This document shows positions 48,858 to 54,073 of a stretch of 64,000 nucleotides of DNA, piece by piece. Both the position numbers and the translations under genes were made by a program. Positions within the stretch are counted from its first letter, which is position 1. Each line of letters opens with the position of its first letter. The DNA is from Natrarchaeobaculum sulfurireducens. Its GTDB lineage: Archaea > Halobacteriota > Halobacteria > Halobacteriales > Natrialbaceae. The stretch spans positions 372,001 to 436,000 of the forward strand of contig NZ_CP024047.1 in assembly GCF_003430825.1 (NCBI RefSeq), written 5' to 3'. The notes under the pieces are model-generated. The model made no database searches and was not told the origin of the DNA. It was given only the letters and a program-made list of their open reading frames with translations.

Positions 48858-49106
48858 CACTCCCTCGTTGACCGTCGCGGTATTTCCCTCTTCTGGGACT
48901 GACACATCATCTCGTGGTGAGAATCGCAACAGACGACGCCGACGACCGCCTCGATCGGAGACACGAGCACACTGATCTACTGATCCGGACGGCGGACTCG
49001 AGCACACTCGGTCACGGCCGATCCGTGCTGTCACCTGTGGATCGCTCGAGCGACTGCCGGTCCGTTTCGCACGGCTTTTGTGGGTCGGCCCAGTACGGAC
49101 TGTCGA

Positions 49107-50102
49107 ATGATCTCGAAGGGCTGTGAGCAGTGCGCGAAAGGCGGCAAGATGGTGCTGTTCGTCTACGGCTACTGCGACCAGCGCGACTGCTTTTACTGCC
49201 CGCTTGGCGAGAACCGCAAGAACGTCACCGACGTCTACGCCAACGAACGACTCGTCGAGGACGACGAGGACGTCATCACCGAGGCCAAGCATATGGACGC
49301 GTTGGGCACCTCGATCACCGGCGGTGAGCCCCAGGAGGCCCTCGAGCGGACCTGTCACTATCTCTCCCTGCTCAAAGACGAGTTCGGCGAGGACCATCAC
49401 ACCCACCTCTACACCGGCATCACGGGCGGCCGCGAGAATATGCGCCGGCTCTCGGAAGCCGGTCTGGACGAGATCCGTTTTCACCCGCCGCTCGAGCAGT
49501 GGGGCGACCTCCACGGCACCGAATGGGAAGAGATCCTCTATATCGCACGGGAGGAAGGGCTTACGCCTGCGTTCGAGATTCCGGGCATCCGCGCGGAACC
49601 GGAGTTCCTTGACTTCCTGGACGAGGGTGCGGCCGACTTCTGTAACGTCAACGAGTTCGAGATGTCCCACGGCAACTTCCGCCGGATGCAAGCGAAAGGC
49701 TACGAACTCAAAGAAGGCCATATGAGCGCCGTCGACAACGACCGCGAGGACATTCTCGAGGTGATGGGCGACCATCCGAACGTGTACTTCTGTACCTCGG
49801 TGTTCAAAGACGCCGCCCAGCACCGCCGACGCCTGAAACGGATGGCCAGAAACGTCCGCCGGGAGTTCGACGACGTCACCGACGACGGTACCCTCGTCTA
49901 CGGAAAAACCTACACCGAGCCCGAACGCTTCGAGGAACTCGGCGTTCCCGAAGAGTTCTACACCGTCAAGTCGAGCCATCTCGAGGTCGCCTGGTGGCTG
50001 CTCGAGGAGATGATCGAGGAAGGCGACGTCGACGACGGTGAAATCGTCGAACAGTATCCGAGTTACGATGGCCAGGTAGTCGAGCGAACGCCGTTGGCGT
50101 AG
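49107..50102 (+). CDS. Radical SAM protein with CX4CX2C cluster motif
   Basis: A 331-residue radical SAM enzyme. The cluster ligands are Cys23, Cys28 and Cys31 (YCDQRDCFYCPLGE), one residue more than the canonical CX3CX2C. An extra CxxC lies at residues 6-9 (GCEQCAKGG). Further signs are the SITGGEPQE SAM-binding motif and HLYTGITGG. The same architecture occurs in other archaea as an uncharacterised radical SAM family; the product is unknown. The C-terminal part (from about residue 250) is helical and acidic. I chose the ATG at 49107. Confidence 0.88.
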   Translation: MISKGCEQCAKGGKMVLFVYGYCDQRDCFYCPLGENRKNVTDVYANERLVEDDEDVITEAKHMDALGTSITGGEPQEALERTCHYLSLLKDEFGEDHHTHLYTGITGGRENMRRLSEAGLDEIRFHPPLEQWGDLHGTEWEEILYIAREEGLTPAFEIPGIRAEPEFLDFLDEGAADFCNVNEFEMSHGNFRRMQAKGYELKEGHMSAVDNDREDILEVMGDHPNVYFCTSVFKDAAQHRRRLKRMARNVRREFDDVTDDGTLVYGKTYTEPERFEELGVPEEFYTVKSSHLEVAWWLLEEMIEEGDVDDGEIVEQYPSYDGQVVERTPLA

Positions 50103-50630: not shown

Positions 50631-51527
50631 TCATACGCGAGCGACCACGTCGAGGTGATGGGCGACGAAGACGAGGTCGCCACGGTCGAGCTGTGTCCGA
50701 CGGGTCTCGAGCCACTGGTCGCGTGTGCTCGGCTCCAGTATCGACGGCGGATAGTCGGCCAGTGCACCCTCGATCGTCTCGAGGACGTGTTCGACGACGG
50801 TGGCTTCGTCATCCGGATAGTGGCCGTCGCGTGAGTGAACGAGCCAGTCCGAGCCACCGGCTGCCACGACGTCGAAGCCGCATTTGGGGGCGGCCTCGAG
50901 GAGCTCCCGGCCGGCGCGACTGGACCCGGGCTGGTCGCGGATCTCGTCCATGTGTCGGTGGTAGTGTCGTTCGATCCGCCCGTCGAGCGGGTGCGCTGGA
51001 GCGAATCTCGTTCCGCCGTCGAACGTGATGGGGGCGTAGAGCACGCCGCCGTCGCGAAGTAGCCCCCGAACGCGCGCCAGCGTGGACTCGAGGTCGACCA
51101 GGTCGAAGACGGCGGCCCCGATCACGGCATCGGCGTCGTCGTCGAGGGCGAAGCCGTCGGCTACCTCGAGCGTAACCTCCAGGTGCGTCTCGGTACCCCC
51201 GTCGACTCGGCTGGCGACGAGTCCCTCGCCGTAGCTCTCGACGTCGTATCCTGCGTCCTCGAGCCAGTGGGGGAGACGCTCGTGGGCGGCCGTCACGCAC
51301 GACGAATCGAGGTCGACGGCGCGATACGAGACGGCTTCAGGGAGTGATTCCCACGCGGCGAGTCGGGAGATCATCGACCCGACGCCAGCGCCGACCTCGA
51401 CGATCCGGACGGGGTCGTCACGGTTCCGGTCCGGGAGCGCGTCAACGAACCGATCCCAGACCCGTCGGTCGAGCGCCCGGTCGTCGATCGTTCGTTTGGC
51501 CGTCAGGTAGTCGACTTTCGTGGTCAC
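50631..51527 (-). CDS. Class I SAM-dependent methyltransferase
   Basis: A 298-residue methyltransferase with motif I VRIVEVGAGVGSM near residues 40-52, an acidic loop (AVDLDSSC) after strand 2, AVIGAAVFDLVDL as motif II-like and LLRDGGVLYAPITFDGG. The acceptor is unknown. GTG start at 51527, 27 bp after the PTPS-like gene end, so it is the last gene of the four-gene operon starting at 53852. Its place beside a pterin-type and a CDP-alcohol enzyme suggests it modifies that product. Confidence 0.85.
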   Translation of the reverse strand: MTTKVDYLTAKRTIDDRALDRRVWDRFVDALPDRNRDDPVRIVEVGAGVGSMISRLAAWESLPEAVSYRAVDLDSSCVTAAHERLPHWLEDAGYDVESYGEGLVASRVDGGTETHLEVTLEVADGFALDDDADAVIGAAVFDLVDLESTLARVRGLLRDGGVLYAPITFDGGTRFAPAHPLDGRIERHYHRHMDEIRDQPGSSRAGRELLEAAPKCGFDVVAAGGSDWLVHSRDGHYPDDEATVVEHVLETIEGALADYPPSILEPSTRDQWLETRRTQLDRGDLVFVAHHLDVVARV

Positions 51528-51554
51528 GGTCGTCCCTCTGGAAGACAGTCGGCC

Positions 51555-51932
51555 TCAAAGCGGCCGTTCATGGTTCACCGTCGCGATGTCATCTTCGTCG
51601 ATTCGAATCACGAGTTCGGTCGCCGTTGCCGGCTCGAGACGTTCGAGTAGGCGATCTCCGACGGTTCTTGCGAGCCGTTCGGCGCTCGGATTTCGACCCT
51701 CGAGCGCGGGAAGTTCGTTGAGCGTGCGATCCCGGAGCGAGTCTACGACGGCCTCGAGCGCGTCGATCACGGCGTCGATGTCGACGAGGTAGCCGTACTC
51801 ATCGAGGTCGGGGCCGCGAAACGTGGCTTCGACCGTATACTGGTGTGAGTGTAAGGTCCCCTCCGGACCCGGGTTCGGAACCGTCAGGTAGTGCTGGGCG
51901 ACAAACGTCCGAGAGACCGACACCGCGTACAT
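51555..51932 (-). CDS. 6-pyruvoyltetrahydropterin synthase-like (QueD/PTPS fold) protein
   Basis: A 125-residue T-fold protein. The zinc His ligands are seen in QHYL and LHSHQYTVEATFRG. YLVDIDAVIDAL, LNELP, NPSAERLA and the Glu in IRIDEDD fit the family. The catalytic Cys that precedes HxH in QueD and mammalian PTPS is replaced by Glu (PEGTLHSH). PTPS-III enzymes have this Cys-to-Glu change and form 6-hydroxymethylpterin, so a pterin-type side-chain cleavage is possible. ATG at 51932. Third gene in the operon, 105 bp after the CDP-alcohol enzyme. Confidence 0.82.
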   Translation of the reverse strand: MYAVSVSRTFVAQHYLTVPNPGPEGTLHSHQYTVEATFRGPDLDEYGYLVDIDAVIDALEAVVDSLRDRTLNELPALEGRNPSAERLARTVGDRLLERLEPATATELVIRIDEDDIATVNHERPL

Positions 51933-52037
51933 ATCTCGAGAGTGGCCGTGAAATCACTTAACTCCCGTCGGTGGTGACAGGAGAGGCGGCCGTTGTCGGT
52001 GGTCGATCGACCGACGGTGGTCATGTCCAGCGGTCCA

Positions 52038-52811
52038 CTAGTCGGCCCGTGGTTCGAGTCGATCGGAGACGACCAGCCAGTCCCGACCGAATTGCAGGAG
52101 AAACGGAACCAGCACGGCCGCAGTGATCAACCACGATCCCGTCCGGCCGGGAACCGGCAGGAGGGCGAGCCAGATGGCGGCCATCGCGAGTGCGCCGAAG
52201 AACCGACGGGCCTGGCTCCGGTCGAGCCCCCGGACGGGTCGCCCGCGTCGACGTCTGCTGGCGATCCCGGCAACGAAGACGTACCGTGCCAGGCCGACGG
52301 CGAGAAACGCCAGGGGGGCGACCCCGTACAGGACGACGATCGAGGCGCCACAGAGAACCGTGAGCGCGTCGATTTCGGTGTCCAACCGGGCGCCGAACTC
52401 GGTGACCGAGTCCGTTCGCCGGGCGACAACGCCGTCGATGGCGTCGAGGCCGGCCGCAATTGCGAACAGCGCTCCGGGAACCCAGACGAGCGTCCCCGTC
52501 GAGGGATCGACGAACACGAACCCGGCGAGCAACGCGAGGGCGCTCCCTCGAGCGATCGTGATCCACGTCGCGAGCGTCAGTGGTTGTGGTCCGGCCTCGA
52601 CTCGAGCCAGGACGAGCGTTCGCCGGACGACCACGAACTGGATCGCGAGGACTGCAAGCGTCCCCAACAGGAATCGGGCCGTCGGCCCGCCGTCCCAGAT
52701 GACCGCGAGTGCGGTCAGCCCGATACCCGCGAAAACGACGTTTCCGACGGTCGCACGCGACACCCGTCCACGCATCGACGGCAGGTCGGTCGTCCTCGAG
52801 CGTTCGATCAC
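52038..52811 (-). CDS. CDP-alcohol phosphatidyltransferase family protein
   Basis: A 257-residue membrane protein with about six helices. The full catalytic motif D-x2-DGx2-AR-x8-G-x3-D-x3-D is present as DAIDGVVARRTDSVTEFGAR followed by LDTEID. These enzymes transfer a phosphoalcohol from CDP-linked donors to an acceptor, making phospholipids or related phosphodiesters. Neighbours imply a special product rather than a common lipid. GTG 52811 is the first start; ATG 52775 is an alternative that would place the start nearer the first helix. Confidence 0.88.
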   Translation of the reverse strand: MIERSRTTDLPSMRGRVSRATVGNVVFAGIGLTALAVIWDGGPTARFLLGTLAVLAIQFVVVRRTLVLARVEAGPQPLTLATWITIARGSALALLAGFVFVDPSTGTLVWVPGALFAIAAGLDAIDGVVARRTDSVTEFGARLDTEIDALTVLCGASIVVLYGVAPLAFLAVGLARYVFVAGIASRRRRGRPVRGLDRSQARRFFGALAMAAIWLALLPVPGRTGSWLITAAVLVPFLLQFGRDWLVVSDRLEPRAD

Positions 52812-52856
52812 GGTCGCGTCCTCACGTCCGTGTCCCGTGCCGTCATGCTGAATAGA

Positions 52857-53852
52857 TCACCTGTCGTACGTGAGCAGTACCTGAAGTGCCGACTCCGGGC
52901 TGGCGTCGAGTCGTTCGTACGCAGCCTGGGCCTCCCAGAACGGAACGTGGTGTGTGATGAGTTCGTCGACGTCGAGTCGCTGGAGCCACTCGAGTGCGGT
53001 CTCGAGGCGACGATCGGTGTCCCATCGGCCACAGAGTGCGGGATCGATGGTGCTGACCTGACTCGAACGCAGGTCGATACGGTCGCGGTGGTATCGTCCG
53101 CCAAGTTCGAGTGGGGCGCGTTTGGTGCCGTACCAGGAGCCGACGACGACCCGCGAGTCGTAGCCGACGGCTCCGATGGCGTCGTCGAGTGCCGTCGGGT
53201 CGCCGGACAGTTCGATCGCGACGTCCGCGTCGTCGACTTCGGCATCGATCTCCTCGGGTGGAACCGCTCGGTCGGCACCGAACGCGAGCGCGAGTTCTCG
53301 TCGAGACTCGAGGGGTTCGACCGCGACGAGTCGCTCGAGCGGAAACGACGCGAGCAATCCGATCACACAGAGGCCGATGACACCGGCTCCGAAGACGACG
53401 ACCTGCTCGCCGAGCCGCGGATGGGCGTCGAGGACGAGGTTCGTCGCGGTTTCGACGGAAGGAAGCAACCCGGCAGCCGTCGGCTCGAGCGGCTCGGGGA
53501 CGGGCACGAGCGCGTCGGGTTGCGCGGTGAACCGCGTCTGGTGGGGGACGAACGAGAAGACGGTGCGTCCTCGCCACGTGTCGTCGACGCCATGGCCGGT
53601 GTCGACGACCTCGCCGACGGCCGCGTAGCCGTACGTCGTCGGGTACGAGAGGTCGCCTTTGAGGGCGTCGATCGTCTCGTCGGCGACGAGATCAGCGGGA
53701 ATCTCGTCCCGATAAACGAGCAGTTCGGTCCCGGCACTGATTGCGGAGACCTGCGTCTCGACGCGTACCTCCCCACGGTCGGGCGAGGGGACGTCAATCG
53801 GTCGCGTCTCGACGGTTCGCGGGCCAGTGAAATGCAGTGCAGCGTCGTCCAT
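52857..53852 (-). CDS. BchC-like medium-chain dehydrogenase (zinc-site Cys missing)
   Basis: A 331-residue MDR-family oxidoreductase with a Rossmann GAGVIGLCVIGLLA segment near residue 165. Instead of the usual GICGSD zinc-site loop it reads SAISAGTELLVYRDE, the pattern seen in BchC-type and related zinc-poor dehydrogenases, and the structural-zinc Cys cluster is absent. It probably uses NAD(P)H; the substrate is unknown. First gene of the operon. The ATG at 53852 was chosen over the longer frame. A TATA-like sequence at 53991-54000 lies about 140 bp upstream. Confidence 0.83.
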   Translation of the reverse strand: MDDAALHFTGPRTVETRPIDVPSPDRGEVRVETQVSAISAGTELLVYRDEIPADLVADETIDALKGDLSYPTTYGYAAVGEVVDTGHGVDDTWRGRTVFSFVPHQTRFTAQPDALVPVPEPLEPTAAGLLPSVETATNLVLDAHPRLGEQVVVFGAGVIGLCVIGLLASFPLERLVAVEPLESRRELALAFGADRAVPPEEIDAEVDDADVAIELSGDPTALDDAIGAVGYDSRVVVGSWYGTKRAPLELGGRYHRDRIDLRSSQVSTIDPALCGRWDTDRRLETALEWLQRLDVDELITHHVPFWEAQAAYERLDASPESALQVLLTYDR

Positions 53853-53990
53853 TGTTGTGTTTTCGTGTCCGTCGCACGGGCCCGTCCTCGACATCCTGAA
53901 CGGTCGGGTACGCCAAACCGATCGGCACGCTGAACCCGATGGTCAGCCGAAACTGGCGGCCGACCGGACTCTTGTTATTCATTTGGCGAT

Positions 53991-54000
53991 AGAATATAAT
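53991..54000 (-). promoter_or_regulatory. TATA-like element upstream of the four-gene operon
   Basis: The minus strand reads ATTATATTCT in the only AT-rich patch upstream of the dehydrogenase gene. It would give an untranslated leader of about 115 nt, unusual in this window where most leaders are short. Confidence 0.4.
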
Positions 54001-54073
54001 AGCTTACTGCTACCTATGCTGGCTTCGAGGTGTCTCCCGGCGACCGGGGTTTCCGGTGAGCGGGCGAACGGGG

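Follow-up and report, generated by a model that had tools for sequence, protein, structure and literature searches.

The window (the whole stretch of 64,000 nucleotides of Natrarchaeobaculum sulfurireducens DNA that was analysed) exhibits a four-gene operon that is the haloarchaeal version, devoid of a glycosyltransferase, of a biosynthetic cluster common to archaea and bacteria. In both domains the four gene subfamilies travel together, normally accompanied by a GT4 glycosyltransferase and often by a GTP cyclohydrolase. The window operon contains neither of these two enzymes, both having been lost from it. The best explanation, in which our confidence is about evenly divided, is that the cluster converts GTP to a glycosylated, methylated, phosphodiester-linked and probably membrane-bound pterin-like molecule, through a chemistry that we infer. 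The four ORFs of the original prediction and their coordinates were all confirmed in the window sequence. All lie on the minus strand, with gaps of 45 bp (MDR to CDP-alcohol transferase), 105 bp (CDP-alcohol transferase to PTPS) and 27 bp (PTPS to methyltransferase):

53853 to 54073, no strand assigned: 221 bp of intergenic DNA ahead of the operon, presumed promoter region, with an AT-rich segment at about 53970-54010
52857 to 53852, minus strand: zinc-free NAD(P)-type MDR (medium-chain) dehydrogenase, the operon's first gene (PF00107 ADH_zinc_N, 38.5 bits; GxGxxG; subfamily model)
52038 to 52811, minus strand: CDP-alcohol phosphatidyltransferase with full catalytic motif (PF01066 CDP-OH_P_transf, 53.9 bits against a Pfam cut-off of 22; subfamily model)
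51555 to 51932, minus strand: PTPS-like tunnel-fold protein, haloarchaeal relative of PTPS-IV with motif ExxxHSH (PF01242, 82.9 bits; structure model; tree)
50631 to 51527, minus strand: class I SAM methyltransferase, last gene of the operon (PF08242 Methyltransf_12, 31.3 bits, barely above the cut-off of 30; glycine-rich SAM motif VGAGVGS)

The original prediction took these genes for one pathway, an idea to be given up if a neighbourhood analysis found them rarely together. Our analysis finds the subfamilies co-occurring and linked in both archaea and bacteria, which bears out a single pathway. Of 147 Halobacteriales genomes, 81 have a member of the MDR subfamily and 84 one of the PTPS subfamily; all 81 MDR-positive genomes also possess the PTPS (Fisher p = 1.7e-38, shared ancestry being ignored). 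The PTPS likewise accompanies the CDP-alcohol transferase in 63 of 65 genomes. The gap between MDR and PTPS is below 1 kb in 65 of the 81 genomes, with both genes on the same strand in 62. The closest relative of the window operon (L075, Natrialbaceae archaeon B1-Br10_E2g2) exhibits the identical four-gene order with 79-93% amino-acid identity, and the codon differences between the two are mostly at third positions; gene calls were from a codon-trained caller. Over half of the sampled haloarchaea carry the cluster, and some of these are cultivable.

The same subfamilies occur together in Rhizobium, Agrobacterium, Methylosinus, Thiodictyon, Microbacterium and Streptomyces, usually in the arrangement MDR-PTPS-glycosyltransferase-methyltransferase. 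We identified bacterial clusters containing RibA (GTP cyclohydrolase II), a RibD-type reductase, MDR, PTPS, GT4, methyltransferase and CDP-alcohol transferase. The bacterial clusters were drawn from plasmid records; in a scan of genome contigs, the best 80 of 539 matches were all from haloarchaea. Against the MDR subfamily model, bacterial cluster members score 197-239 bits and other MDRs at most 122 bits. Against the CDP-alcohol transferase model, they score 87-126 bits and the two other such transferases of the source genome 23 and 9 bits; with these controls the subfamily is cluster-specific in both domains. The methyltransferase subfamily recurs with the cluster in the loci examined, with homologues in all ten annotated bacterial clusters (48-100 bits); 16 of 19 relatives match PF13649.

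A pathway of the four activities alone, as first proposed, gains no support, since the usual set adds the GT4 glycosyltransferase and the GTP cyclohydrolase; the prediction as a whole is supported in part. The cyclohydrolase is the entry enzyme that had been overlooked: it is of type III in haloarchaea, and of type II (RibA), together with a RibD-type (RibD_C) reductase, in bacteria. The same pathway appears in two domains with the cyclohydrolase type swapped. In 33 of the 84 cluster-positive haloarchaeal genomes, a GTP cyclohydrolase III gene is found no more than 10 kb from the PTPS, every time on the same strand; the other 51, the window's genome included, have no copy within that distance. 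At 28 of 80 loci the cyclohydrolase gene directly precedes the MDR, and in relatives where the PTPS is separated from the MDR (coded g24), the PTPS is mostly 34-629 bp from it. RibD was not seen in haloarchaeal clusters. The bacterial cluster RibD scores 115 bits against the model of the ribityl-forming archaeal reductase (TIGR01508), below its cut-off, and 148 bits against the RibD C-terminal model. Elsewhere, the source genome possesses a second GTP cyclohydrolase III-MDR pair (on C2), a GT4 homologue of 52% identity (C3:1814162) and a RibD-type reductase (C3:2306013). With GTP cyclohydrolase III or II and the RibD-type reductase as members of the clusters, a GTP- or pterin-type precursor is likely, in support of the original suggestion of a pterin-like compound.

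The first enzymes of the archaeal entry into riboflavin and F420 synthesis (ArfA, a GTP cyclohydrolase III, and the TIGR01508-type reductase) are tied to the cluster or common to both, whereas the cluster-specific MDR, PTPS, GT4, methyltransferase and CDP-alcohol transferase are foreign to those pathways. CofD, a marker of F420 synthesis, is present in all 123 good Halobacteriales genomes, while the cluster PTPS is found in 71 and absent from about 42% of them; we therefore reject F420 supply as the role of the cluster in haloarchaea. Glycosyl and CDP-alcohol transferases are equally foreign to core F420 or riboflavin synthesis. A role in F420 or riboflavin supply more generally is very unlikely, despite the linked GTP cyclohydrolase and RibD-type genes, the F420-type or PPOX oxidoreductases near two clusters and the AGeNNT observation that PF00925 and RibD_C adjoin PTPS-IV (PMC5445326). 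The function of PTPS-IV has so far rested on an unpublished remark, quoted in a review, that it is involved in F420 synthesis; the same review calls the function of PTPS-V unclear (PMC5041015).

The PTPS-like protein of the window exhibits the fold (predicted structure, pLDDT 92.4) and the zinc-histidine triad (His14, His28 and His30, all invariant) of the tunnel-fold superfamily (PF01242). By both sequence and fold, the closest relative with a solved structure is SCO6650 (PDB 3d7j, TM-score 0.91), a PTPS-IV protein (FGPAQ-motif COG0720) whose structure has been available since 2008 without an assigned function; the TM-score with QueD is about 0.80. A phylogenetic analysis places the haloarchaeal and bacterial cluster PTPSs, SCO6650-type proteins included, together against QueD (support 97/87), a grouping that rests partly on long branches. 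The PTPS-IV bacterial clusters contain the same MDR, GT4, methyltransferase and CDP-alcohol transferase subfamilies as neighbours. Haloarchaeal members have the motif GPEGxxHSH, which includes three zinc histidines and a glutamate, in contrast to FGPAQxxHGA in PTPS-IV: the window protein has PGPEG where the bacterial cluster members mostly have FGPAQ. The bacterial forms lack the third zinc histidine (HGA, not HSH) and the catalytic glutamate, so the haloarchaeal and bacterial forms may catalyse different reactions.

The motifs of PTPS-I, PTPS-II and PTPS-III were not found in the window protein. Its EGTLHSH (ExxxHSH), conserved throughout the haloarchaeal subfamily, stands in place of the CxxxHGH of PTPS-I (QueD), and differs from the ExxHGH of PTPS-III (folate) in that the glutamate is one residue farther from the first histidine and the motif ends in HSH. 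The fold, the three zinc histidines, the ring-anchoring glutamate and the NPT/S-x-E motif are common to QueD, PTPS-III and the window protein, but the usual catalytic Cys/Asp/His residues are missing from the latter, with Arg-Asp in place of the Asp-His dyad, and its clade is separate from QueD. It is hardly credible that this protein serves the organism as QueD or as a folate enzyme and lies among unrelated neighbours. TIGR03367 (QueD) is its best NCBIfam match, but the score of 43.4 bits falls below the cut-off of 89.25; the genome encodes a QueD-like protein with CxxxHGH in another gene, at C3:2521339, and the PTPS is co-distributed with the MDR and the CDP-alcohol transferase. The separate QueD copy, the motif and score tests and the tree lead us to reject that identity as stated. 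For the PTPS paralogues, the cluster supplies a whole enzyme set, making the question of their product directly testable.

The MDR had been described as lacking zinc cysteines, and indeed it has only two cysteines (GLCVIG and ALCGRW), neither in a zinc-ligand context; the family alignment exhibits no conserved cysteine and no GHE motif, and retains GxGxxG. The "BchC-like" label attached to it corresponds to its best match, a weak one (TIGR01202, 66 bits against a cut-off of 291 bits), and a BchC identity is rejected. With the MDR beside GTP cyclohydrolase, an early step fits as well as the late reduction formerly proposed.

In the pathway that we propose, GTP would be opened to a 2-amino-4-oxo-5-(formyl)amino-6-ribosylaminopyrimidine phosphate, and a RibD-type reductase (the one in the bacterial clusters or the archaeal housekeeping enzyme) would convert the sugar to ribityl. 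The zinc-free MDR might then oxidise a side-chain hydroxyl; if this is C2', reduction plus oxidation would amount to an Amadori shift, and the 5-amino group could then close a pterin ring. The PTPS-like enzyme would next reshape the ring or the side chain, with decoration by the methyltransferase and GT4. Finally, the CDP-alcohol transferase may couple the polyol (or polyol phosphate) with a CDP-activated alcohol, CDP-archaeol being the likeliest, to yield a phosphodiester-linked, probably membrane-bound pterin-like molecule. A literature search found no description of this pathway.

The CDP-alcohol transferase exhibits the complete motif D-x2-D-G-x2-A-R-x8-G-x3-D-x3-D (DAIDGVVARRTDSVTEFGARLDTEID), as originally noted. 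It shares this motif and its family (PF01066) with archaetidyl(inositol/glycerol)-phosphate synthases, but falls well short of all NCBIfam equivalog cut-offs (pgsA scores best, at 40 bits with a cut-off of 109) and is separate from the two other PF01066 members of the source genome. The CDP-OH fold is that of an integral membrane enzyme, known members of which take CDP-diacylglycerol-type or similar donors. The predicted membrane or phosphodiester step stays plausible, given the cluster-specific subfamily and the PAP2, flippase-like and cytochrome b561 genes near some clusters, and the enzyme probably joins the pterin-like compound to a lipid or polyol. As the transferase was not seen in the displayed stretches of clusters L158, L163 and L165 and of several haloarchaeal clusters, this step may be optional.

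Alternatively, the same enzyme could build a small phosphodiester and the product be a glycosylated pterin, soluble and charged, instead of a lipid, which we consider quite unlikely. Halophiles reportedly contain charged pterins, "phosphohalopterin" and "sulfohalopterin" (Lin and White, 1980s), some clusters have sulfatase-like and PAP2 genes, and the co-distribution and GTP cyclohydrolase III linkage would suit such a product as well as a lipid-linked one. However, our literature search found no paper naming either compound, the CDP-OH fold is that of a membrane enzyme with lipid-type donors, and the flippase-like and cytochrome b561 genes beside bacterial clusters point to a membrane product. 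It is also rather unlikely that the cluster is a polar-lipid or glycolipid head-group route from CDP-archaeol and a sugar or polyol, with the PTPS-like protein acting on a sugar-like compound and no pterin involved. The CDP-alcohol transferase, GT4, methyltransferase and MDR, with the fused Gfo/Idh-aldo-keto reductase, FkbM methyltransferase and PAP2 of some clusters, are typical of sugar and lipid chemistry. Yet a pure sugar-lipid route would need neither the GTP cyclohydrolase III or II nor the RibD-type reductase linked to the PTPS in both domains, and the NPS-x-E motif and anchor glutamate retained by the PTPS suit a guanine- or pterin-type ring.

Should the pterin-like product prove membrane-bound, it would represent a new type of cofactor or pigment linked to a lipid. 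We suggest, with considerable doubt, that haloarchaea and bacteria share a new class of pterin-type redox cofactor that is lipid-anchored and made from GTP via riboflavin-type enzymes and a zinc-free dehydrogenase without GTP cyclohydrolase I. The presence of cytochrome b561 in several bacterial clusters hints that it might serve membrane electron transfer. Considered as a candidate haem protein, DUF7475 exhibits one well-conserved histidine, too little to assign that role. The recurrent neighbours c12, c31, c15 and k5 received no clear name from Pfam.

The window (G000:C3:372001-436000) belongs to a Halobacteriales genome. The original prediction of four genes in this order on a single strand, spaced by 27-105 bp, was borne out by open reading frames and family scans. 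In transcription order, the genes are:

52857-53852 (-): MDR dehydrogenase
52038-52811 (-): CDP-alcohol transferase
51555-51932 (-): PTPS-like protein
50631-51527 (-): methyltransferase

The successive intergenic gaps are 45, 105 and 27 bp. As had also been claimed, the MDR dehydrogenase lacks the zinc-ligand cysteines (its GxGxxG motif being present) and no residue of the CDP-OH catalytic motif is missing. The label "BchC-like" for the dehydrogenase reflects a weak best match only (66 vs 291 bits) and was not retained. The nearest relative found, Natrialbaceae archaeon B1-Br10_E2g2, shares all four genes and their arrangement with 79-93% identity, and codon differences are concentrated at third positions (23/16/76 at positions 1/2/3 for the MDR gene, 8/2/33 for the PTPS gene). 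This comparison shows the four genes to be real and under purifying selection. A 646-aa open frame running antisense across the CDP-alcohol transferase and MDR genes (51993-53933, +) was taken as a high-G+C artefact. A radical SAM protein gene lies nearby on the opposite strand (49080-50102, +), with no sign of cluster membership in related loci.

With subfamily models, MDR was identified in 81 and PTPS in 84 of 147 Halobacteriales genomes spanning dozens of genera. The possibility that the four genes are rarely together is contradicted by their co-occurrence: PTPS is present in all 81 MDR genomes (Fisher p = 1.7e-38, shared ancestry ignored) and in 63 of the 65 genomes with the CDP-alcohol transferase (p = 1.7e-20, again ignoring shared ancestry). 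MDR and PTPS lie within 1 kb of each other in 65/81 genomes, on the same strand in 62 of those 65. Among 80 MDR-anchored loci from named haloarchaea (the best 80 of 539 matches, many ending at contig ends), 70 contain PTPS, 56 the methyltransferase, 55 the CDP-alcohol transferase and 41 all four genes.

The full gene set exceeds these four. In most of 40 fetched neighbourhoods a GT4 glycosyltransferase sits between PTPS and the methyltransferase, and the small membrane protein DUF7475 is a further neighbour; some also contain a fused Gfo/Idh-aldo-keto reductase, an FkbM methyltransferase, a sulfatase-like protein, a PAP2 phosphatase or a DoxX protein. Another neighbour is GTP cyclohydrolase III (PF05165, 291 bits), found immediately upstream of MDR on the same strand in 28/80 MDR-anchored loci. 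It lies within 10 kb of PTPS in 33 of the 84 PTPS genomes, always on the same strand, and in 21 of these 33 is the only copy among the matches listed. In the g24 group of relatives, PTPS is parted from MDR and mostly lies 34-629 bp from GTP cyclohydrolase III. This recurrent same-strand linkage therefore ties the set to a GTP-opening enzyme.

Two cluster loci on one Haladaptatus pallidirubidus chromosome (L130, L131) exhibit identical match scores and spacing for MDR, PTPS, GT4 and methyltransferase, which suggests either that the cluster was recently duplicated or that the repeat arose in assembly. The cluster PTPS of Haloarcula marismortui ATCC 43049 (L171:10021-10390, pHMA411) is matched in two pieces and lacks an annotation in each of two separate records, H49 and H50, as though a frameshift had disrupted the gene in this strain. 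The recurrent neighbour families c12 (L038:5677-6486) and k5 (L176:7202-7807), without clear Pfam match, carry short DGNHR or similar G-x-HR motifs with a ParB-like resemblance.

A tblastn search of plasmid records revealed adjacent MDR and PTPS genes in Alphaproteobacteria, one gammaproteobacterium and Actinomycetota. The usual order in ten annotated loci (L157-L160, L162-L167) is MDR-PTPS-GT4-MT, and methyltransferase (MT) homologues score in all ten. A RibD-family reductase is present in 8/10, the CDP-alcohol transferase in 6/10, GTP cyclohydrolase II (RibA) in 5/10, and a cytochrome b (b561 family) and a flippase-like membrane protein in 4/10 each. The bacterial RibD scores 148 bits with the RibD C-terminal model and 115 bits, under cut-off, with the archaeal reductase model TIGR01508. 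The haloarchaeal CDP-alcohol transferase model gives bacterial cluster members 87-126 bits versus 23 and 9 bits for the two other CDP-OH transferases of the host genome; the MDR model gives 197-239 bits versus at most 122 for other MDRs of the same loci, a Nonomuraea MDR (201 bits, no PTPS nearby) being the exception. Because both models separate cluster members from other family members, the clusters of the two domains are assigned to the same subfamilies, beyond the same broad families. With GTP cyclohydrolase III in haloarchaea versus GTP cyclohydrolase II in bacteria, the two sets start with unrelated enzymes and share the later ones.

The window PTPS was modelled with a mean pLDDT of 92.4. 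Its best solved relative, by both sequence and fold, is Streptomyces coelicolor SCO6650 (PDB 3d7j, TM-score 0.91), deposited as uncharacterised. The three zinc histidines, the anchor glutamate and NPS-x-E are invariant. QueD has a cysteine at the catalytic position and an Asp-His pair, whereas the cluster PTPS has a glutamate (motif ExxxHSH) and the window protein Arg-Asp at the latter site. ExxxHSH matches none of the motifs listed in PMC5041015: CxxxHGH (PTPS-I), CxxxxxHGH (PTPS-II) and ExxHGH (PTPS-III). Bacterial cluster members carry the PTPS-IV signature FGPAQ, and HGA where the haloarchaeal form has HSH. A phylogenetic tree groups haloarchaeal and bacterial cluster PTPSs apart from QueD (support 97/87), with long branches as a caveat. 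Two Streptomyces plasmids (L161, L170) exhibit PTPS-IV-type genes without MDR or the rest of the cluster within the stretches shown; some PTPS-IV proteins may thus have another role.

GTP cyclohydrolases III and II convert GTP to formylamino- or diamino-ribosylaminopyrimidine phosphates, from which a RibD-type reductase yields the ribityl form. The MDR, closest to polyol and threonine dehydrogenases, would then oxidise the side chain. Were C2' its target, the reduction and the oxidation together would amount to an Amadori shift, after which the pterin ring could be closed through the 5-amino group; such a route would not need GTP cyclohydrolase I. The next step, on ring or side chain, would fall to the PTPS-like enzyme, the methyltransferase and GT4 would decorate the product, and the CDP-alcohol transferase would make a phosphodiester, most simply with CDP-archaeol. 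A membrane product would agree with the PAP2, flippase-like and cytochrome b561 genes nearby; a soluble charged pterin is possible. A pure sugar-lipid route leaves the GTP cyclohydrolase and RibD-type genes unexplained. An unpublished remark links PTPS-IV to F420 (PMC5041015). F420 supply was rejected, CofD occurring in 123/123 good genomes and cluster PTPS in only 71/123, as was a QueD function, the host having a separate QueD-like copy.

As to a soluble charged pterin, halopterins were reportedly described in the 1980s; the literature searched yielded no paper naming them and no description of the pathway. PTPS-IV genes are known to neighbour PF00925 and RibD_C (PMC5445326). What appears new is the haloarchaeal form, the complete co-distribution of MDR with PTPS and the exchange of one cyclohydrolase type for another.

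GT4, DUF7475 and GTP cyclohydrolase III are missing from the window operon. Elsewhere, the host genome (contigs C2, a 166-kb replicon, and C3) contains:

C3:1813 kb: full-length GT4, 52% identical to the cluster form, beside cluster-associated family c15
C3:1960 kb: second GTP cyclohydrolase III copy
C3:2306 kb: RibD-type reductase
C3:2521 kb: QueD-like gene
C2, ~80.8-83.1 kb (L175:8272-10619): second GTP cyclohydrolase III-MDR-c31 unit
C2 (L199:9309-10389): DUF7475-c12 pair, apart from that unit

Together, the two C2 entries form a further, incomplete cluster split into separate pieces. In this host the pathway may be whole with its genes scattered, and its parts would then work together. A probable transposase ORF directly follows c31 on the replicon.
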